A stretch of 64,000 bases of DNA from Hydrogenophaga sp. (lineage in GTDB: Bacteria; Pseudomonadota; Gammaproteobacteria; Burkholderiales; Burkholderiaceae_C). The position numbers were made by a program, and so were the translations under genes. Numbering within the stretch: the stretch's first letter is position 1; every line of letters starts with the position of its first letter. The stretch spans positions 1 to 64,000 of the forward strand of contig JAUXNG010000094.1 in assembly GCA_030682835.1 (NCBI GenBank), read 5' to 3'. Below are positions 39,725 to 48,710 of the stretch, piece after piece. The notes below the pieces were generated by a model. The model ran no database searches and was not told the DNA's origin. It worked only from the letters and a program-made list of their open reading frames with translations.

Positions 39725-40204
39725 TCAGAGCCAGCGCCGGACGCGCTGCGTGTAGTCGGTGTAGGCGGTGCCGAACAGGGTGGCGAGCACGCGCTCTTCG
39801 GGCTGGATCTGGAAACGGGTGATGTAGGCGATGAAGACCAGCGGGCCCAGGAACGCGCCCAGTGCACCGAGCCACACGGCCCAGGCCAGCAGGAAGCACG
39901 CCATGCCCACGTACATGGGGTTGCGTGTGAGGCGGTAAACACCGCCGGTGACCAGCGACGACGACTTGGCCGGGCTCAGCGGGTTCACCGTGGTGCGCTG
40001 GCGGTGGAAGGCCCAGAGGCCGGCCATGTCGAAGCTGCCGCCGATCACCACCAGCGCGAGTGCCAGGCCAGCGCGCAAGGCGGATGGCCATTCCAGCGCC
40101 ATGGCGTGGGGAGCCAGCCACCACATGGCGGCACCCAGCAGCAGGGCCACGGCCGGGGGTGGCAGTTTGAGTTCAAGGCCGCTCAGCCAGCGGGATTCGG
40201 GCAT
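39725..40204 (-). CDS. Isoprenylcysteine carboxyl methyltransferase-like membrane protein
   Basis: A 159-residue polytopic membrane protein with four hydrophobic segments. The C-terminal block GGVYRLTRNPMYVGMA followed by QIQPEERVLATLFGTAYTDY is typical of the ICMT/PEMT-like family. These proteins are predicted to methylate small membrane substrates, but bacterial members are poorly characterised. The ATG at 40204 starts the conserved part; it is 5 bases from the mipA-like gene. Confidence 0.83.
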   Translation of the reverse strand: MPESRWLSGLELKLPPPAVALLLGAAMWWLAPHAMALEWPSALRAGLALALVVIGGSFDMAGLWAFHRQRTTVNPLSPAKSSSLVTGGVYRLTRNPMYVGMACFLLAWAVWLGALGAFLGPLVFIAYITRFQIQPEERVLATLFGTAYTDYTQRVRRWL

Positions 40205-40209
40205 GAAGG

Positions 40210-41076
40210 TCAGTCCGGCACCAGGGTGGTGGAACGGGCCCAGGTGTAGCTCAGCCCCATGCCCACGGTGGCGCCGCTGCGTTGCTCCACCAGCGGGCTC
40301 GCGCCGTTGGCCGCGCCGGCCACCGAATCGAGTCGGGCGAAGCCGAACAGCAGCCAGTCGCGGTTCAGGCTCTTGCTGGCGGTCAGGCCCAGCCGCCAGG
40401 CCACCAGGCCGCCGTCGGCTGCATAAGCGGGCCGGCTGCCGGTGGCGAACTCGGGCGCCACGCCGTACAGGGTGTCGCCCAGCCGGCGGTTGCCGGCCAC
40501 CAGGCCAAGGCTGGCGCTGTGGTTCCAGCCCGAGCGGCTGCGGTTCTCCAGCACCAGCCGGGGTTCGAACGCGAGGCCACGGTAGGCCAGGCCGTCGCTC
40601 AGGTCGAGCACGCCGCGCAACGCGGCTTCGGCACGCAGGCGGCTGCCGCCGGGGCCGGCACCCAGGTGCCATTTCACCCGCGGGCCAAACTCGACCAGCG
40701 TCCCCAGGTCGGGCATGCCGCTGCGCGCCGGCAGGTCGTCGGAGCTGGTGCCGAAGGAGCCGGCGAAGCCCACGTCGAGTTCAAAGGTGGGGGTCTTGAC
40801 GGCGCGCAGGCCCACGGTATCGCGGTCCACCCGCCAGAACTCGCCGCGGTACACCGCGTAGGGCACGACCAGGCCGCGGTTGGTGCGGACGCCCGAGCCG
40901 GGATAGGCCGGCTGCGAGCTGCTGAAACCCACCACGCCCAGCTCCCACAGGGGCTTGCCGGTGCCGGGCAGGCCGGGCTGAGCCTGAGGAGCCTCTTCAG
41001 CGTGTGCCCCCGGCGAAAACAGGGCCAGCGAGACCAGCAGCGCGGCCGGTCGACTCACTCTGGAATGGGTGCTCAT
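40210..41076 (-). CDS. MipA/OmpV-family outer-membrane protein
   Basis: A 288-residue protein with a signal peptide (about 1-26, ending AHAE) and a beta-barrel ending in alternating hydrophobic strands. The start of the mature part (WELGVVGFSSSQPAYPGSG, RGLVVPYAVYRGEFWRVD) and TPTFELDVGFAGSF are family hallmarks. MipA scaffolds murein synthases in E. coli; OmpV-like members may be porins. It is the last gene before selD on the same strand (31-base gap). Confidence 0.88.
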   Translation of the reverse strand: MSTHSRVSRPAALLVSLALFSPGAHAEEAPQAQPGLPGTGKPLWELGVVGFSSSQPAYPGSGVRTNRGLVVPYAVYRGEFWRVDRDTVGLRAVKTPTFELDVGFAGSFGTSSDDLPARSGMPDLGTLVEFGPRVKWHLGAGPGGSRLRAEAALRGVLDLSDGLAYRGLAFEPRLVLENRSRSGWNHSASLGLVAGNRRLGDTLYGVAPEFATGSRPAYAADGGLVAWRLGLTASKSLNRDWLLFGFARLDSVAGAANGASPLVEQRSGATVGMGLSYTWARSTTLVPD

Positions 41077-41107
41077 GGCGGTCTCTACCGGAAGGGACTC
41101 AGCCCGG

Positions 41108-42187
41108 TCAGGACACCACGAGTCGCACGCCACCGTCTTGTGGCGCCCCGATCTCGCCCACCTCCGCAGCCGCCTCGAAGCCGTGGCGCGCGAAGATGGC
41201 CAGCACCTCGGCCACCGCGTCGGGCGCGCAGGCCACGAGCAGGCCACCACTGGTTTGCGGGTCGGACAACAGGGCCTGGTCGACCGGCTGCAGGCCCGCG
41301 CCCAGGCGCACCTCTTGGCCGTAGGCGGCCCAGTTGCGGCCGCTCGCGCCCGTGACCATGCCCTGCGCGGCCAGATCGCGCACGCCGGCGATCAGTGGCA
41401 CGCGGGCCATGTCGATCTGCACCGTGGTGTTCGAGCCGCGCGCCATTTCCAGCACGTGGCCGGCCAGGCCAAAGCCGGTGATGTCGGTCATGGCGTGCAC
41501 GCCGTCCAGGGCCGACAGGTCGGGGCCGGGGGTGTTGAGCTTCGTGGTGTTGGCGATCATCTGCGCGTAGCCCTCGGGGCTGAGCGCGTCTTTCTTGAGC
41601 GCGGCCGACAGCACGCCAACGCCCAGCGGTTTGCCAAGGATCAGGCGGTCGCCCACGCGGGCGTCGGCGTTGCGCTTCACGCGCTTGGGGTGCACCAGGC
41701 CCAGCGCCACCAGGCCGTAGATGGGCTCCACCGAGTCGATGGTGTGGCCACCGGCAATGGGAATGCCGGCTTCGCGGCACACGCTCTGGCCGCCGTCGAG
41801 GATCTTGCCGATGGTCTCGACCGACAGCACGCCGATGGGCATGCCCACCAGGGCCAGCGCCATGATGGGCGTGCCGCCCATGGCGTACACGTCGCTGATG
41901 GCGTTGGTGGCAGCGATGCGCCCAAAGTCGAACGGGTCGTCGACGATGGGCATGAAGAAATCGGTGGTGGCGATCAGCGCCTGCTCGTCGTTGAGCTGGT
42001 ACACCGCGGCGTCGTCCGCCGTTTCAATGCCCACCAGCAGCTCCTTCGGGATAGGCATGGCGCTGGTGCCCTTGAGGATCTCGCTCAGCACGCCGGGCGC
42101 GATTTTGCAGCCGCAGCCGCCGCCGTGCGAAAGGCTGGTGAGGCGGGGCTCGGCGCGGGGCGTGGCGGGGGTGGCGGGTGTGGTCAT
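41108..42187 (-). CDS. selD: Selenide, water dikinase (SelD; SenC of the selenoneine pathway)
   Basis: A 359-residue enzyme that makes selenophosphate from selenide and ATP. The active-site loop is SHGGGCGCK with Cys25 and Lys28 (Cys27 precedes Lys), matching Cys17/Lys20 of E. coli SelD; the residue is cysteine, not selenocysteine. DDAAVY, TTDFFMPIVDDPFDFGRIAA, DITGFGLAGH and SDPQTSGGLL complete the family pattern. The ATG at 42187 is preferred because GGAG lies 9 bases upstream; an in-frame ATG at 42262 would overlap senB by 13 bases and add a low-complexity tail. The gene is directly downstream of senB on the same strand, so it probably serves selenoneine synthesis as SenC. No selA or selB is in the window. 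Confidence 0.95.
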   Translation of the reverse strand: MTTPATPATPRAEPRLTSLSHGGGCGCKIAPGVLSEILKGTSAMPIPKELLVGIETADDAAVYQLNDEQALIATTDFFMPIVDDPFDFGRIAATNAISDVYAMGGTPIMALALVGMPIGVLSVETIGKILDGGQSVCREAGIPIAGGHTIDSVEPIYGLVALGLVHPKRVKRNADARVGDRLILGKPLGVGVLSAALKKDALSPEGYAQMIANTTKLNTPGPDLSALDGVHAMTDITGFGLAGHVLEMARGSNTTVQIDMARVPLIAGVRDLAAQGMVTGASGRNWAAYGQEVRLGAGLQPVDQALLSDPQTSGGLLVACAPDAVAEVLAIFARHGFEAAAEVGEIGAPQDGGVRLVVS

Positions 42188-42249
42188 CGGCGAAGGCTCC
42201 GGAATCAGATGAAGGGGTCGGTCAGGCGCAGGCTGTTCGGCATCGGCAC

Positions 42250-43233
42250 TCACGGGCGGCATTCGTGCAACACCTGCAGCAAGGCCGCCTGCTCGGCGCG
42301 CGGCTCAAACAGCGGCGCCCGTGCTGCACATTGTGCTTGCAGCAGGGCCAGGCTGCTGCCACCCGTGGCGATGTCCTGGCGGCACTGCCGAAAGCGGGCG
42401 GCAAGGGCGGGCGCGTCGCCCACCGGGAAATAGCCCGCGTAGTCCACACCCAGCATGCCCACGTTGCCCGACATGTGCGAGGCCAGCACCGGCGTGCCGC
42501 TGCACACGGCTTCCATGATCACGTGGGCACCGCCTTCCATGCGGCTGGGGTGCACCAGCAGGTGGGCGCGCTGGATGTGCAGGCGCGCCACGCCATGCGG
42601 CAATGCACCCAGCCAGCGGTAGTGCAGGCAGTCGCGCGCGGTCTCCCGCGCCGCCTCGCCCAGCGCGGGGTCCAGCGCGGCGCCGATGTGGTCGATGCGA
42701 ATGCCCTCGTCCGGCCGCAGCAGGCGGGCCGCGGCCATCAGCGTGAGGGGGTCCTTTTCATCACGCAGATGGCCCACCGCCACCACGCGCAGGTGACGGC
42801 TGGACTTGGGCAGGGTCTGGCGCCGGGTACTGGACTGCAGCACCACACGGCACTTGTCGCGCCACTGGGGCGGCAGGGCCAGCGGCGCCTGGTCCTGCAG
42901 CACGATGAGCCGGTGCGCCAGGGCCAGCGAGCGCTGCGCGCTGGCATCGTGGTCGATGTCGCGGTAGAGGTCGGTGCCGGTCAGCGCGACCAGCAGCGGG
43001 CGCTGCGGATGAGCCTGCGCCCAGGCGGCGATGGAAGAGGCCGAGCGGCGCGCGTGCAGGGCCAGCAGCAGGTCGGCGTCTGGCAGGCCAGGGCCTGCGT
43101 CGGGCCAGGCCCGGGCCAGCTGAACCGCATAATGACCCGAGAGCATTTGCGCCCAGCGCCGGGCGGTCTGCCAGTTGCCGTTGTTGGCATCGGCCAGGGC
43201 CGGTGTGACGATACAAAGCGAAGGAAGTTTCAT
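42250..43233 (-). CDS. senB: Selenosugar synthase SenB (GT-B glycosyltransferase)
   Basis: A 327-residue GT-B fold protein. The N-terminus (SLCIVTPALADANNGNWQTARRW) is the SenB hallmark. The C-terminal nucleotide-sugar domain has VVAVGHLRDEKDPLTLMAA and the E-x7-E motif EGGAHVIME at 233-241. In the characterised Variovorax pathway SenB uses selenophosphate and a UDP-N-acetyl-hexosamine to form a 1-seleno sugar, which SenA then joins to hercynine. It sits between selD (downstream, same operon) and senA (divergent). The identification comes from sequence resemblance plus this context. Its ATG shares two bases with the senA ATG on the other strand. Confidence 0.9.
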   Translation of the reverse strand: MKLPSLCIVTPALADANNGNWQTARRWAQMLSGHYAVQLARAWPDAGPGLPDADLLLALHARRSASSIAAWAQAHPQRPLLVALTGTDLYRDIDHDASAQRSLALAHRLIVLQDQAPLALPPQWRDKCRVVLQSSTRRQTLPKSSRHLRVVAVGHLRDEKDPLTLMAAARLLRPDEGIRIDHIGAALDPALGEAARETARDCLHYRWLGALPHGVARLHIQRAHLLVHPSRMEGGAHVIMEAVCSGTPVLASHMSGNVGMLGVDYAGYFPVGDAPALAARFRQCRQDIATGGSSLALLQAQCAARAPLFEPRAEQAALLQVLHECRP

Positions 43234-44491
43234 GGATGAGCGCGCCGCCGCCATTGTGGCGGCAAAGCATTCACTGCACGCCGGGCAGGGCCACGAGGCC
43301 CGCACGCTGGGCCGGGCTGCGCTCGGGCAAGCCCTGCAGGCGGTGCGGCGGCGCACGCTGCAGCTCTTTGACGCGTTTGAGCTGGCGCTCGGCCCCGGCC
43401 TGCCGGTGCCCTGCACGCCCGAACTGAACCCGCCGCTGTGGGAACTGGGCCACACCGGCTGGTTCGCCGACTGGTGGATCGCCCGCAACCCGCAGTGCGC
43501 CCTGGGCCCGCGGGCCGACCCACTGGTGACCCGCCGGCCCGCGCGCCGGGCCAACGCGGATGCGCTCTACAACTCCAGCACGGTGCCACACGAGCAACGC
43601 TGGCAGCTGGACCTGCCGGATGCCGACCACACGCGCGCCGACCTGGCGACCAGCCTGGCTGACACGCTGGCCCTGCTGGACACGACAGCCGACGACGACC
43701 AGGGCCTGTACTTTTTCCGTCTCGCACTGTTCCACGAGGCCATGCACGCCGAAGCCGCGGTTTACATGGCGCAGACCCTGGGCATCGACCCCTTCACCGC
43801 GGGCGCCGAGCCGCTGGCCTCACCTGCCGCCAGCCTCAACGACGCGGTGCTGAAGATCCCCGCGCAGCGGTGGACACTGGGCTGGGCAGGCCCCGGCTTC
43901 GCTTTCGACAACGAGCTGGCGCCGCACACGGTGGCGCTGGATGCCTTTCACATCGACGCCCAGGCCCTGCGCTGGGCAGACTTTCTGCCTTTCATGACGG
44001 ACGGCGGTTACGAACAGCAGCGCCTGTGGGGCGAGGCCGGCTGGGCCTGGCGGCAGCAGCACAGCGCGGGATTTCCGCGCCACCTGCGCCGCGGCCCCCA
44101 CGGCTGGGAGCAACAGAACTTCGGACGCTGGCGGCCACTGGATCTGCAGGCCGCTGCCACACACCTGAGTGGGTTCGAGGCACAGGCCTGGTGCCGCTGG
44201 GCCGGTCGGCGCCTGCCCACCGAAGCCGAATGGGAAGCCGCTGCCCTCACGGCCCCCGGCTTTGTCTGGGGCGAGGTGTGGGAATGGACCGCCAGCCCGT
44301 TCGCGCCCTTCCCCGGTTTCGAGCCCCACCCCTACCGCGACTATTCCGCGCCCTGGTTCGATGGCCGGCCCGTGCTCAAGGGCGCCTGCCCGGCCACGCT
44401 GCCGCTGATGCGCCACCCCCGCTACCGCAACTACTTTCCCGCCGCGCGCAACGACATCGTGGCGGGCTTGCGGACCGTGGGCCTGCGCTGA
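43232..44491 (+). CDS. senA: Selenoneine synthase SenA (EgtB-like)
   Basis: A 419-residue nonheme-iron enzyme with an N-terminal DinB-like domain and a C-terminal FGE-sulfatase domain. Iron ligands are His74 (LWELGHTGWF) and the H-x3-H-x-E block HEAMHAE at 168-174. SenA couples a selenosugar to hercynine to make the selenoxide that collapses to selenoneine. The N-terminus (RTLQLFDAFELA, NPPLWELGH) is nearer SenA than EgtB, and the window has a separate true egtB. The ATG follows AAGGAAG; a GTG at 43256 is an alternative. It overlaps senB at the start (CATG) and converges on egtD with 4 bases between stops. Confidence 0.9.
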   Translation: MDERAAAIVAAKHSLHAGQGHEARTLGRAALGQALQAVRRRTLQLFDAFELALGPGLPVPCTPELNPPLWELGHTGWFADWWIARNPQCALGPRADPLVTRRPARRANADALYNSSTVPHEQRWQLDLPDADHTRADLATSLADTLALLDTTADDDQGLYFFRLALFHEAMHAEAAVYMAQTLGIDPFTAGAEPLASPAASLNDAVLKIPAQRWTLGWAGPGFAFDNELAPHTVALDAFHIDAQALRWADFLPFMTDGGYEQQRLWGEAGWAWRQQHSAGFPRHLRRGPHGWEQQNFGRWRPLDLQAAATHLSGFEAQAWCRWAGRRLPTEAEWEAAALTAPGFVWGEVWEWTASPFAPFPGFEPHPYRDYSAPWFDGRPVLKGACPATLPLMRHPRYRNYFPAARNDIVAGLRTVGLR

Positions 44492-44495
44492 GGCC

Positions 44496-45494
44496 TCAGG
44501 CGACCGGCGCCCAGAACACGCTGAACCAGCCGCGCTCGTCGGTCCAGTGCGTGGCGGGGCCGAAGCCGGCATCGGCCAGCAACTGCTGGAAGGTCTGAGG
44601 CTCCCATTTGCACGAGTTTTCGGTGTGCACACGCTCGCCCGCCGCGAATGTGCGGTGGCCGCCCGGCCAGGAAACGGTCTGGGCCGAACGGGCCTGCAGG
44701 TGCATTTCGATGCGGGAACGCGCGGCGTCGAAGAAGGCCACATGGTCCCACTGCGCGGGCGCGAAGTCGGCCTGCAGCCAGCGGTTCACGTTCAGCAGCA
44801 GGTTGCGGTTGAAGGCAGCGGTGACACCCAGTGCGTCGTCGTAGGCAGGTTCCAGCACGTTGGCCGCTTTCACCCGGTCCACCCCGATCAGCAGGCCACC
44901 ACCGGGGCCGCCCGCCGCGCACGCCGCGTGGGCCTGGCGCAGCAAGGCCAGCGCCTCGTACGGCGTGAAGTTGCCGATGCTGGAGCCGGGGTAGAACACC
45001 ACGTGCGGCTGGCTGTGCAGTTGCTGCGCAGCCAGCCAGTCGGTCACGTCGCCGCCCAGCGCGAGGGTGGCCGAAAAGTCCAGCCCTAGGCCGAGCATGG
45101 GCAGGGCCGGGTGGCGCTGCTGCAGCGCCTGCAGCGACTCGCGCAGGTAATCCACCGAAATGTCCACCGCCACATAGGCTGCCGTGTGCATCACGTCAAA
45201 CAGGCGGGCCGCCTTGGCACAGCTGCCGGCGCCCAGGTCGATCAGCACGGCCTGCGGGGGCACGTGCTGCGCCATGTCGGCGCCGTGCTGCGCGAAGATA
45301 GCGGCCTCGGTGCGGGTCGGGTAGTACTCGGGCAGCTCGGTGATGGCGTCAAACAGGCGCGAGCCCAGGGCGTCGTAGAGGAACTTGGGGGCGATGCGCG
45401 ACGGCTGTTCGGCCAGGCCGGCCAGCAGCTCGGCGCGCACGGCCGCGTCGTCGCTGCGGTGCAGCTGGACAAAGCGCGGGCTGGGCGCCGTCAC
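44496..45494 (-). CDS. egtD: Histidine N-alpha-methyltransferase EgtD (hercynine synthase)
   Basis: A 332-residue SAM-dependent methyltransferase that converts histidine to hercynine by three methylations. The signatures are FDAITELPEYYPTRTE, the SAM loop LIDLGAGSC (86-92 region), FYPGSSIGNFTPYEA and, near the end, SCKWEPQTFQQLLADAGF. The start is GTG at 45494, overlapping the egtB stop (GTGA); the open frame upstream has no homology. Hercynine is the shared precursor of ergothioneine (EgtB) and selenoneine (SenA). Confidence 0.94.
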   Translation of the reverse strand: MTAPSPRFVQLHRSDDAAVRAELLAGLAEQPSRIAPKFLYDALGSRLFDAITELPEYYPTRTEAAIFAQHGADMAQHVPPQAVLIDLGAGSCAKAARLFDVMHTAAYVAVDISVDYLRESLQALQQRHPALPMLGLGLDFSATLALGGDVTDWLAAQQLHSQPHVVFYPGSSIGNFTPYEALALLRQAHAACAAGGPGGGLLIGVDRVKAANVLEPAYDDALGVTAAFNRNLLLNVNRWLQADFAPAQWDHVAFFDAARSRIEMHLQARSAQTVSWPGGHRTFAAGERVHTENSCKWEPQTFQQLLADAGFGPATHWTDERGWFSVFWAPVA

Positions 45495-46828
45495 AGGCTG
45501 CGCGCCAGACGCAGGCCGCTGAACTGCCAGCGGGCCTCGGCCGGGAAGAAGTTGCGGTAGCTGACCCGCACATGCTCGGCCGGCGAAGCACAGGAGCCCC
45601 CACGCAGCACCAGCTGGTTGACCATGAACTTGCCGTTGTATTCGCCCACCGCGCCCTCGGCCGGGTGAAAGCCGGGGTAGGCGCTGTAGCTGCTGCCGGT
45701 CCATTCCCACACGTCGCCATACAGCTGGCAAAGACCCGGTGTGGCGCCCCCTTTGGGAGCCGGCGCCGGCATGGGGTGCAGCGCGCCACTGTCAGCAAAG
45801 TTGCCGGCCACTGGCAGGGGCGCGGTGGCGGCCTCCCACTCGGCCTCGGTGGGCAGGCGGGCGCCGGCCCAGTCGGCCCGCGTGGCCGAGGCCCAGTGGG
45901 CAAAGGCGTGGGCCTCGAAGGCACTGATGTGGGTCACGGGTGTGTGCGGGTCCAGCGGCACCGGCCCATGCAGGGTAAACACCGTGGGGCGGGCGCCTGC
46001 CTCCTGCGGCAGCGTCCAGTAAAGCGGCGCGCGGATGCCCTGGGCGCGCACCCAGTCCCAGCCGGCGGCGAGCCACCAGCGCGGATCGCTGTAGCCGCCG
46101 TCTTCCACGAAGGCCAGCCATTCGCCGTGCGTGACCGGGCGGTTCATGAGCGCATACGGCTCCAGCCAGGTGCGGTGGCGCGGGCATTCGTTGTCGAAGG
46201 CAAAACCCCCGCCGCTGTGGCCGATCTCCACCAGCCCGCCGGCACAGGCGACCCACTGCGCGGCCACCTCGGCCACGCTGGCCAGCGGCCAGCCACCCTG
46301 GTACACGGGCTGCAGCGGGTTGAGCGACAGCAGGTGCTTCACGTCGGTGAGCATCAGTTCCTGGTGCTGCTGTTCGTGTTGAAGGCCCAGTTCGACCAGT
46401 TGCAGGGCTTCGTCGCTGCGCGTGCTGGCGATCAGCTCGGCCATGCGCGCGTCCACCTGGGCGCGCCACTGCCGCACCGTGTCCAGATCGGGCCGGGTCA
46501 CGAGGCCGCGCTGGGCGCGCGCAAAAGGCTCGCCGACGCCGTTGTAATAGCTGTTGTAGAGCGCACGGAAGCCAGGGTGAAACGGCTCGAAACCCGGTTC
46601 GAAACGCTCCAGCACGAAGATCTCGAAAAACCAGGTCACATGCGCCAGGTGCCACTTCACCGGGCTGGCGTCGGGCATGGACTGCGCCTGGCAGTCTTCC
46701 GGCGACAGCGGGGCGGCGAGCGCCAGGCTGCGGTCGCGCACCGCCTGGTAGCGGGCGATCAATGCGGAACGCGGCGCCTCGGCGGGGTCGATGCCCGGTG
46801 CGGGCATCAGCAGGGGAAGAGAACTCAT
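45491..46828 (-). CDS. egtB: Ergothioneine biosynthesis sulfoxide synthase EgtB
   Basis: A 445-residue nonheme-iron enzyme with an N-terminal DinB-like domain and a C-terminal FGE-sulfatase domain. Iron ligands are His63 (KWHLAHVTWFF), His151 and His155 (HEQQHQE, 151-157). It forms the C-S bond between hercynine and a cysteine or gamma-glutamylcysteine donor. RLPTEAEWEAA and GDVWEWTGSSY are typical. It overlaps egtD by four bases and the upstream sugar dehydrogenase by four bases. The later lyase step (egtE) and egtC are not in the window. Confidence 0.94.
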   Translation of the reverse strand: MSSLPLLMPAPGIDPAEAPRSALIARYQAVRDRSLALAAPLSPEDCQAQSMPDASPVKWHLAHVTWFFEIFVLERFEPGFEPFHPGFRALYNSYYNGVGEPFARAQRGLVTRPDLDTVRQWRAQVDARMAELIASTRSDEALQLVELGLQHEQQHQELMLTDVKHLLSLNPLQPVYQGGWPLASVAEVAAQWVACAGGLVEIGHSGGGFAFDNECPRHRTWLEPYALMNRPVTHGEWLAFVEDGGYSDPRWWLAAGWDWVRAQGIRAPLYWTLPQEAGARPTVFTLHGPVPLDPHTPVTHISAFEAHAFAHWASATRADWAGARLPTEAEWEAATAPLPVAGNFADSGALHPMPAPAPKGGATPGLCQLYGDVWEWTGSSYSAYPGFHPAEGAVGEYNGKFMVNQLVLRGGSCASPAEHVRVSYRNFFPAEARWQFSGLRLARSL

Positions 46829-47979
46829 CGGGGGGGCTCCAGGCGCAGAAGCTGGCCGTTGCGGTCGTCGGTCAGCAGGTAGATCAGGCCGTCCGGGCCT
46901 TCGCGCACATCACGCACGCGCTGGCCCAAGTCGGGCAAGAGTTTTTCTTCGTTTCGCACCCGCGCGCCGTCCAGCTCGAGGCGGGCAAGGTAACGGAATT
47001 TGAGCGAGCCCACGAGCAGGCTGCCTTTCCACGCCGGGCCGTAGCGGTCGCTGCGCACAAAGGCCATGCCCGAGGGCGCGATGGAAGGCGTCCAGTGGTG
47101 CAGGGGCTGCTCCAGCCCCTCACGGCTGGTGATGCCCTGGCCGATGCGCCCGCCCCCGTAGTTTTCACCGTGGGTGATGATGGGCCAGCCGTAGTTCTTC
47201 CCGGCCTCGGGGCGGTTGATTTCGTCGCCGCCCTGCGGGCCGTGTTCGATCACCCACAGGCGCCCGTCGGGGCCCATGGTGGCACCCTGTGCGTTGCGGT
47301 GGCCCAGGCTCCAGATCTCGGGCAGCGCACCGCTGCGGTTCAGAAACGGGTTGTCAGGGTGGGGGCTGCCGTCGGGGCGCACGCGCACCACCTTGCCGTG
47401 GTGGGTGTCCAGCGTCTGCGCATCGTTCATGCGCTGGTAGCGGTCACCCAGCGCCAGGAACAGGCTGCCGTCTTCGGCCTGCACGATGCGGCAGCCGAAA
47501 TGCAGCCGGCTCGCCACCTTGGGCTGCTGGCTGAAGATGACCTTTACGTCTTCCAGCCGCGTGGCGTCGGCTGAGAGCTTCGCGCTGGCCATGGCCGTGG
47601 AATTGCCGCTGCCCGTGCTCGCCGGCTCGGCGTAGCAGAAGTGCACGGTGCGGTTGGTGGCGAACTGGCGGTCGGTGATGAGGTCGAGCAGGCCGCCCTG
47701 CCCCGCGGCTTCCACCCGGGGCACGCCCGCCAGAGGCTCGCTGAGCTGGCCGGCGCTCGAGACCACCCGCATGCGCCCGGGGCGCTCGGTGACCAGCATG
47801 CGCCCGTCGCCGATGAAGGCCACGGCCCAGGGATTCTCCAGCCCGCGGGCGATCACGGTGGTGGTGACGCCCACACCCTGGCCCTGAGCGCTGGTGACCG
47901 CCGCAAGTCCAACGGCCAGCACGCAGACGCGCGTTTTCAGGAAAGACAGGCGATGAGGGCGTGGCAGGGGTCGGGTCAT
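46825..47979 (-). CDS. PQQ-dependent soluble aldose sugar dehydrogenase
   Basis: A 384-residue periplasmic beta-propeller of the soluble glucose dehydrogenase (YliI/Asd) type. A signal peptide (to about residue 32, ending AQGQ) precedes ENPWAVAFIGDGRMLVTERPGRM, VASRLHFGCRIV, LGHRNAQGATMGPDGRLWVIEHGPQGGDEIN and NYGWPIITHGENY. The last motifs bind calcium and PQQ. It oxidises aldoses and passes electrons to a quinone or dye acceptor. It overlaps egtB by four bases (ATGA), so it heads the operon, though a link to thiol synthesis is not obvious. No pqq biosynthesis gene is in the window. Confidence 0.9.
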   Translation of the reverse strand: MTRPLPRPHRLSFLKTRVCVLAVGLAAVTSAQGQGVGVTTTVIARGLENPWAVAFIGDGRMLVTERPGRMRVVSSAGQLSEPLAGVPRVEAAGQGGLLDLITDRQFATNRTVHFCYAEPASTGSGNSTAMASAKLSADATRLEDVKVIFSQQPKVASRLHFGCRIVQAEDGSLFLALGDRYQRMNDAQTLDTHHGKVVRVRPDGSPHPDNPFLNRSGALPEIWSLGHRNAQGATMGPDGRLWVIEHGPQGGDEINRPEAGKNYGWPIITHGENYGGGRIGQGITSREGLEQPLHHWTPSIAPSGMAFVRSDRYGPAWKGSLLVGSLKFRYLARLELDGARVRNEEKLLPDLGQRVRDVREGPDGLIYLLTDDRNGQLLRLEPPR

Positions 47980-48131
47980 GGGCGGAGCACTCCAGTTCTA
48001 GATCTGCGGGGCAGCTTCTGGCACCCGGCAACCCCATGATGAAGCGCGATCCGCCCCGGCACAAGCCCGGCCGGGCGGGCGTGTGGGGGCTTTTACGCGC
48101 AGCAGGCGCGTCCGGGCAGATGGGCCCTGGG

Positions 48132-48710
48132 TCAGCGCGGCTCGTTGCCGGGCAGGCCGTCGAGCAGGTCGGACAGCTCGTCGGCATGCTCTTCCTCCAC
48201 CGCCAGGATCCGCTTGAGCAGGTCGCTGGTAGTGGGGTCCTGGTGACCCAGCAGCTGCACCATCTCGCGGTAGCTGTCGATGGCGATGCGCTCGGCCACG
48301 AGGTCTTCACGCATCATCTCGACCAGCGTGTTGCCGGGAACGTATTCGGCGTGGCTGCGCGAGGTCAGGGTGTCGGGCGAGAAGTCGGGTTCACCCCCCA
48401 GCTGAACGATGCGTGCGGCCAGATCGTCGGCATGGCTCTGCTCTTCCCTGGCGTGCTCCATGAACTCCTTGGCGATGCCCTGCGCATGGATGCCACGCGC
48501 CATGAAATGGTGGCGGCGGTAGCGGAGCATGCACACCAGTTCGGTGGCCAGCGCATCGTTGAGCATTTTCAGCACCTGCTCGCGGTCGGCCGTGTAGCCC
48601 GCCGTGACCGCGCCGCTTTCAATGTGCTGGCGGGCCCGGGCCCGCAGCGTAGCCACGTCGGTGAGCTGCTGCGGTGCGGTCACGGTGCCGTCTGGGCTCT
48701 GCGGGTTCAT
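48132..48710 (-). CDS. Ferritin-like diiron protein (bacterioferritin family)
   Basis: A 192-residue four-helix protein with ferritin-type ligands: ALATELVCML (Glu), FMEHAREEQSHADDL (Glu/His), VAERIAIDSY and ILAVEEEHADELSDLL. The sequence suggests iron storage or peroxide detoxification rather than a full 24-mer bacterioferritin, because the haem methionine region is not clear. It overlaps the BON-domain gene by four bases (ATGA), so the two form a small stress operon. Confidence 0.82.
   Translation of the reverse strand: MNPQSPDGTVTAPQQLTDVATLRARARQHIESGAVTAGYTADREQVLKMLNDALATELVCMLRYRRHHFMARGIHAQGIAKEFMEHAREEQSHADDLAARIVQLGGEPDFSPDTLTSRSHAEYVPGNTLVEMMREDLVAERIAIDSYREMVQLLGHQDPTTSDLLKRILAVEEEHADELSDLLDGLPGNEPR

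Follow-up and report, generated by a model that had tools for sequence, protein, structure and literature searches.

A complete selenoneine locus joined to ergothioneine genes in Hydrogenophaga, with a single EgtD predicted to serve both branches

The 64,000-nt stretch of Hydrogenophaga sp. DNA analyzed here (hereafter the window; contig 78 of a 3.6-Mb source assembly) carries what we read, at a probability of roughly 0.87 and from sequence, as a complete selenoneine locus joined to ergothioneine genes, in which a single EgtD would serve both branches. The three sen genes together occupy 41,108-44,491 (3.38 kb), matching the 3.4 kb given in an earlier note on this DNA, and directly adjoin egtD-egtB as that note had claimed; senA is the only + strand member of the five-gene block, the other four genes lying on the − strand. 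The features are as follows.

41108..42262, − strand: selD/senC, selenide, water dikinase (selenophosphate synthetase), Cys form; NF002098 547 bits (cut-off 299), TIGR00476 436 bits
42250..43233, − strand: senB, selenosugar synthase (Se-glycosyltransferase); TIGR04348 442 bits (cut-off 300)
43231..43234, both strands: CATG, overlapping divergent start codons of senB (−) and senA (+), from the sequence
43232..44491, + strand: senA, selenoneine synthase (non-heme iron, EgtB-like family); NF041186 517 bits (cut-off 420)
44492..44495, no strand: 4-nt gap between the convergent senA and egtD stop codons, from the sequence; no terminator-like site in the scan
44496..45494, − strand: egtD, L-histidine N-alpha-methyltransferase (hercynine), GTG start; TIGR03438 363 bits (cut-off 290.9), PF10017 339 bits
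45491..46828, − strand: egtB, ergothioneine sulfoxide synthase, Cabther (8qf6/6o6l) type; TIGR03440 545 bits (cut-off 360)
46825..47979, − strand: GSDH, glucose/sorbosone dehydrogenase family protein; PF07995 449 bits
36435..37601, + strand: stand-alone flavoprotein, TIGR03169 (Nterm_to_SelD); 327 bits (cut-off 310)

Proteins were called with NCBIfam profiles at their curated cut-offs, with which Pfam agrees at domain level, and all five proteins of the block score above them, so that the gene identities, order and coordinates of the earlier note hold; chance is excluded by these family scores together with the conservation of the block in relatives. The iron-ligand motifs (SenA H74 and H168-E-A-M-H172; EgtB H63 and H151-E-Q-Q-H155) and the SenB NNGNW signature that it listed are likewise present, and SelD/SenC has a GGGCGCK motif at residues 47-53. 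By sequence, the closest PDB matches are 8ryz/8k5i for SenA (E about 8e-131), 8fbx for SenB (E 7.5e-114) and 8qf6/6o6l for EgtB (E 5.9e-132, with a near full-length match to 8qf6), 4x8b matching EgtB at only 6.2e-40. According to PMC10702425 and PMC10891094, respectively, 8fbx is a Variovorax paradoxus protein, and the sugar-donor and catalytic residues of SenB are, in V. paradoxus numbering, N20, T23, K158, E231 and EGGAHV; N20, T23, K160, E233 and EGGAH of the window SenB are invariant in an alignment, K160 and E233 being matched to K158 and E231 by motif and spacing, which puts K160 at the place of the putative catalytic lysine. Some start codons are in doubt: senB has a second in-frame ATG 7 codons upstream, for senA a start at the GTG 8 codons downstream would open a gap of 22 nt, and the profile match of SelD starts no earlier than residue 37-40. 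Rfam hits at gathering thresholds were limited to four tRNAs in the window, on which ground the presence of a known RNA element at this locus was rejected.

Since SenA and EgtB share a common family and identical iron-ligand motifs, and SenA reaches 240 bits on the EgtB model, it could be argued that SenA is a second EgtB-like sulfoxide synthase and that the locus makes ergothioneine only. We regard this as extremely improbable. The SenA score lies above the SenA cut-off and below that of EgtB (360), the window EgtB reaches 366 bits on the SenA model (cut-off 420), and senA adjoins senB in 31 of the 43 SenB-positive genomes of the family sample described below. Moreover, a tree of 70 rows, built by maximum likelihood from the window, named relatives and three solved proteins, separates 56 SenA rows, including the window and 8ryz, from 13 EgtB rows, including the window and 8qf6, with support 100/100; a branch with either group on its own side occurs in all 200 bootstrap trees (100%). 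The tree includes OvsA, for which a long-branch join with the EgtB rows was flagged. Within it the window SenA lies closest to proteins of the Hydrogenophaga type, and 8ryz is anchored near Variovorax by 91% identity to Variovorax beijingensis SenA over 373 residues. The earlier note had named grouping of SenA with EgtB as its refutation; the tree instead places the window SenA with solved SenA, and on profile scores and tree together we reject SenA as an EgtB.

In the pathway proposed from these assignments, SelD would make selenophosphate, also feeding selenocysteine and 2-selenouridine, and SenB would transfer selenium to a UDP-sugar; EgtD would trimethylate histidine to hercynine, which SenA would join with the selenosugar to give selenoneine and EgtB would join with cysteine toward ergothioneine. 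Cysteine is here presumed to be the EgtB substrate on account of the Cabther subtype: the window EgtB is a near full-length match to Cabther-type EgtB (8qf6, 6o6l), and the choice between cysteine and gamma-glutamylcysteine is a prediction. The source genome was found to hold one EgtD, one SenA over cut-off and one EgtB, in addition to a 64-bit partial match elsewhere. The earlier note's suggestion that one methyltransferase could feed two products thus gains support, as a single EgtD accompanying both SenA and EgtB makes shared hercynine the natural reading. One hercynine supply for SenA and EgtB is therefore likely on the gene content, and because one EgtD would serve both, the selenoneine and ergothioneine branches probably compete for hercynine.

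The same gene content recurs in a sample of 120 genomes of the family, 43 of which, from 42 genera, encode SenB over cut-off. SenA over cut-off is present in 39 of the 43, and EgtD accompanies it in 39/39 (exactly one copy in 38), compared with 42 of the 77 genomes without SenB over cut-off (Fisher p = 2e-8, kinship ignored; 2 of these 42 fall under the EgtD cut-off). As EgtD occurs in all genomes with both SenB and SenA, a shared EgtD appears usual in the family and not peculiar to the window; 30/43 SenB-positive genomes combine SenA with one EgtD and an EgtB-like protein, a label that in these counts denotes solely a score below the SenA cut-off.

Proximity of the genes gives a more differentiated picture. 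Among the 43 genomes, 22 have egtD within 6 kb of sen genes, nine have it no more than 2.5 kb from an EgtB-like gene, and one, the window's own, shows both, although broken assemblies could hide joined loci in these neighborhood counts. We also examined 80 named loci, the top-ranking ones among at least 564 confirmed relatives, so that their shares describe close relatives: egtD lies within 1.5 kb of senA or senB in 39/80, and egtB is also beside egtD in three (L036, L044 from Hydrogenophaga taeniospiralis, and L112). In L112 the egtD-egtB pair lies 1.5 kb from senB and the proteins are divergent (43-44%), and in another locus, L083, egtB abuts senA with egtD 2 kb further out. Hence the joining of sen genes to egtD-egtB described in the earlier note stands for the window, its egtD part being common in the family and only the added egtB being rare. 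An egtB is seen in 12 named loci, and in four of them GSDH adjoins it; in the window GSDH is the probable upstream gene of an egtB-egtD operon.

Two points weigh against the interpretation of the locus as one unit with a single shared EgtD: the genome is 87% complete, so that another copy of egtD or selD may have escaped the assembly, and relatives in which egtB is joined to egtD and the sen genes are so few (3/80 loci, 1/43 genomes) that the placement of egtB may be incidental.

The selenoneine cluster senABC was described in V. paradoxus DSM 30034 (Kayrouz et al. 2022, as cited in PMC9814287, PMC10891094 and PMC10702425) and has the same three enzymes as the window. The nearest Variovorax locus found, L081 of V. 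beijingensis, has the window's divergent senA / senB-selD order, with senA and senB starts overlapping by 13 nt (on ATG choice), but has no egtD or egtB in its 10-kb flanks, whereas in the window egtD and egtB directly follow senA. Burkholderiales sen loci with egtD (for example L036, L042 and L044), those of Hydrogenophaga among them, resemble the window in that egtD is convergent with senA, followed by divergent senB-selD, and L036 and L044 further share the window's order of egtB and GSDH. A literature search of partly accessible sources, with the 2022 founding paper outside its coverage, returned no description of sen genes joined with egtD, nor of sen genes joined with both egtD and egtB, and we do not conclude from it that none has been published. 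While the pathway and its enzymes are known, the joined layout is rare.

A further feature of the locus, absent from the earlier note, is that senA, placed between egtD and senB, runs antisense to both and leaves next to no spacer on either side. The neighboring genes are packed as tightly, with overlaps of 13 nt between selD and senB (with the selD start used), 4 nt between egtD and egtB (GTGA) and 4 nt between egtB and GSDH (ATGA). Such a placement of senA is common among relatives: of the 55 named loci that have senA within 3 kb, 54 show it divergent from senB, and on ATG choice 11 named loci share the CATG start overlap of the window. Of 81 sequences, 46 yielded both anchors and were surveyed for start codons; L074, whose SenA anchor is false as its genome is without any SenA match, was then dropped, which reduced the number to 45. 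With the latest plausible starts, the senA/senB gap is at most 60 nt in 39/45. On the other side of senA, two sets of 30 loci were used. In one, egtD lies no more than 1.5 kb from senA; in the other the limit is 2 kb and, by selection, egtD shares the strand of senB. Each set has one locus that the other lacks (L099, L041). In the first set egtD is convergent with senA in 30/30. In the second, the distance between the egtD and senA stop codons does not exceed 30 nt in 16 of the 30 and 100 nt in 25, and a crude scan gave a terminator-like site at none of 30 related junctions, with none listed at the window junction.

In eight loci egtD precedes senB with no senA between. The egtD stop lies 1-17 nt before the senB match in six of them, four of which have a senB match starting with ATG, and the distance exceeds 1.3 kb in the other two (L085, L112). 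Of the six closed-up loci, senA is on another contig in the genomes of L050, L071, L075 and L097, elsewhere in the locus in L054, and represented only by sub-cut-off pieces in the genome of L066. As egtD closes up to senB where senA is absent between them, egtD-senB-selD can stand as one block, into which, in the window, senA is set in the opposite direction. To judge by the tight − strand packing of GSDH-egtB-egtD-(senA)-senB-selD, transcripts of senA likely overlap those of its neighbors.

Such a layout recalls the noncontiguous operon menE-menC-MW1733-ytkD-MW1731 of Staphylococcus aureus (PMC7154746), where same-strand genes are likewise split by one opposite-strand gene with hardly any spacer; the likeness is in layout only, which for the window is known from sequence. 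By analogy, the locus could be a conserved noncontiguous operon, in which one transcript, egtB-egtD-(antisense senA)-senB-selD, would make hercynine and selenosugar, while the senA mRNA, for the joining enzyme, would be antisense over its full length, and overlapping transcription would tie together substrate supply, selenoneine synthesis and the selenium/sulfur choice. We consider this unlikely. The alternative, which concerns the layout alone and to which we give about an even chance, is that the pathways are neighbors for historical reasons, a shared EgtD having made adjacency convenient, with no regulatory coupling and a spacing due to ordinary compaction. That antisense senA and the egtD neighborhood recur over many genera speaks against compaction; on the other hand, most relatives examined have egtB at a distance from their sen genes, and the EgtB rows near sen loci form two sub-clades that differ in placement and orientation. 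Compaction is also favored by the search for an embedded promoter or operator signal, which found no excess synonymous conservation over the first 45 codons of senB (0.568 vs 0.638, p 0.94) or senA (0.560 vs 0.587, p 0.70) in 14 sequences, and by a sigma-70 scan of 40,000-48,200, which gave 0 sites (0.2 expected); terminator-like sites in the same interval numbered three (3.4 expected). Simple compaction is thus the likelier of the two.

As regards selenium supply, the earlier note had treated SelD/SenC as a gene of the selenoneine pathway, a role that has to be widened: the window's selD is the only one found in the source genome, which also encodes MnmH and SelA, together with a tRNA-Sec (71 bits, gathering score 47) located 70 bases from the selA match, so that a selD dedicated to selenoneine is ruled out. 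With a sole selD found and SelA, tRNA-Sec and MnmH encoded, selenophosphate probably has three outlets in this genome, namely selenoneine, selenocysteine and 2-selenouridine. Besides the true MnmH, the source genome encodes a second, weak MnmH-like protein (G000:C75:29940-30863, 115 bits, below cut-off). Across the 43 SenB-positive genomes, a single SelD match is found in 41 and SelD lies within 3 kb of senB in 42, MnmH is present in 43/43 and SelA in 6/43; SenC is most likely the general SelD of these family genomes. That the one selD found must serve SelA and MnmH might suggest that selenocysteine and tRNA selenouridine are the main purpose of the selenium genes, with SenB and SenA silent or minor. 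This is improbable, considering that selD adjoins senB in nearly all SenB-positive genomes, few of which have SelA, and that senB and selD of the window overlap.

The stand-alone TIGR03169 flavoprotein lies 3.5 kb from the selD-senB block. A protein of this type directly precedes the SelD domain after senB in 28/80 named loci, mostly in one open frame, and stands alone in nine other named loci that have a stand-alone SelD; the window flavoprotein may, we infer, help to supply selenide to SelD. SenB itself is said to reduce selenate in PMC11929427, in conflict with other papers.

SenB also occurs apart from SenA. Nine of 22 SenB genomes tested have no SenA match at E 1e-20 (loci L048, L052, L053, L058, L060, L072, L074, L076 and L077; genomes G120, G122-G125, G128, G129, G131 and G132). 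None of the nine has an EgtD match at the same threshold, L052 keeping an 80-residue egtD piece before senB, and selD is by senB in six of the nine loci. Similarly, G019 and G034 (99-100% complete) encode SenB without EgtD and SenA over cut-off, with a 75-bit partial match in G019. Limnohabitans parvus and Tepidicella baoligensis likewise gave no match to SenA or EgtD, while their loci contain SenB and SelD. In SenA-less SenB genomes, a selenosugar product other than selenoneine is possible. The Limnohabitans isolates L074 (7669-9715) and L076 (7689-9714), which lack a SenA match, have genes for an exported protein, rhodanese-like by eye, and a membrane protein directly upstream of senB.

Sen genes are found on plasmids as well. 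On pBPS33-1 of Hydrogenophaga sp. BPS33 (L117, 7843-9954), an EgtB/SenA-type gene and senB are divergent, flanked by arsenic genes on one side and by chromate, mercury and copper genes on the other. On the 25-kb plasmid pMPOP01 of the alphaproteobacterium Methylorubrum populi BJ001 (L118, 4726-6963), senA and senB are divergent with a 27-nt gap and lie beside an IS6-like transposase.

In biological terms, the locus would offer a natural case of a selenium and a sulfur product that can both draw on one hercynine source within 6 kb of DNA, and Hydrogenophaga taeniospiralis (L044) is a named strain with the window's layout. With SenC as a general selenophosphate synthetase, selenoneine would have to share its pool with selenouridine and, in some genomes, selenoproteins. 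The recurrent antisense senA offers an occasion to probe control by overlapping transcription in a biosynthetic locus, and SenB in genomes without detected SenA or intact EgtD points to a further selenium metabolite.

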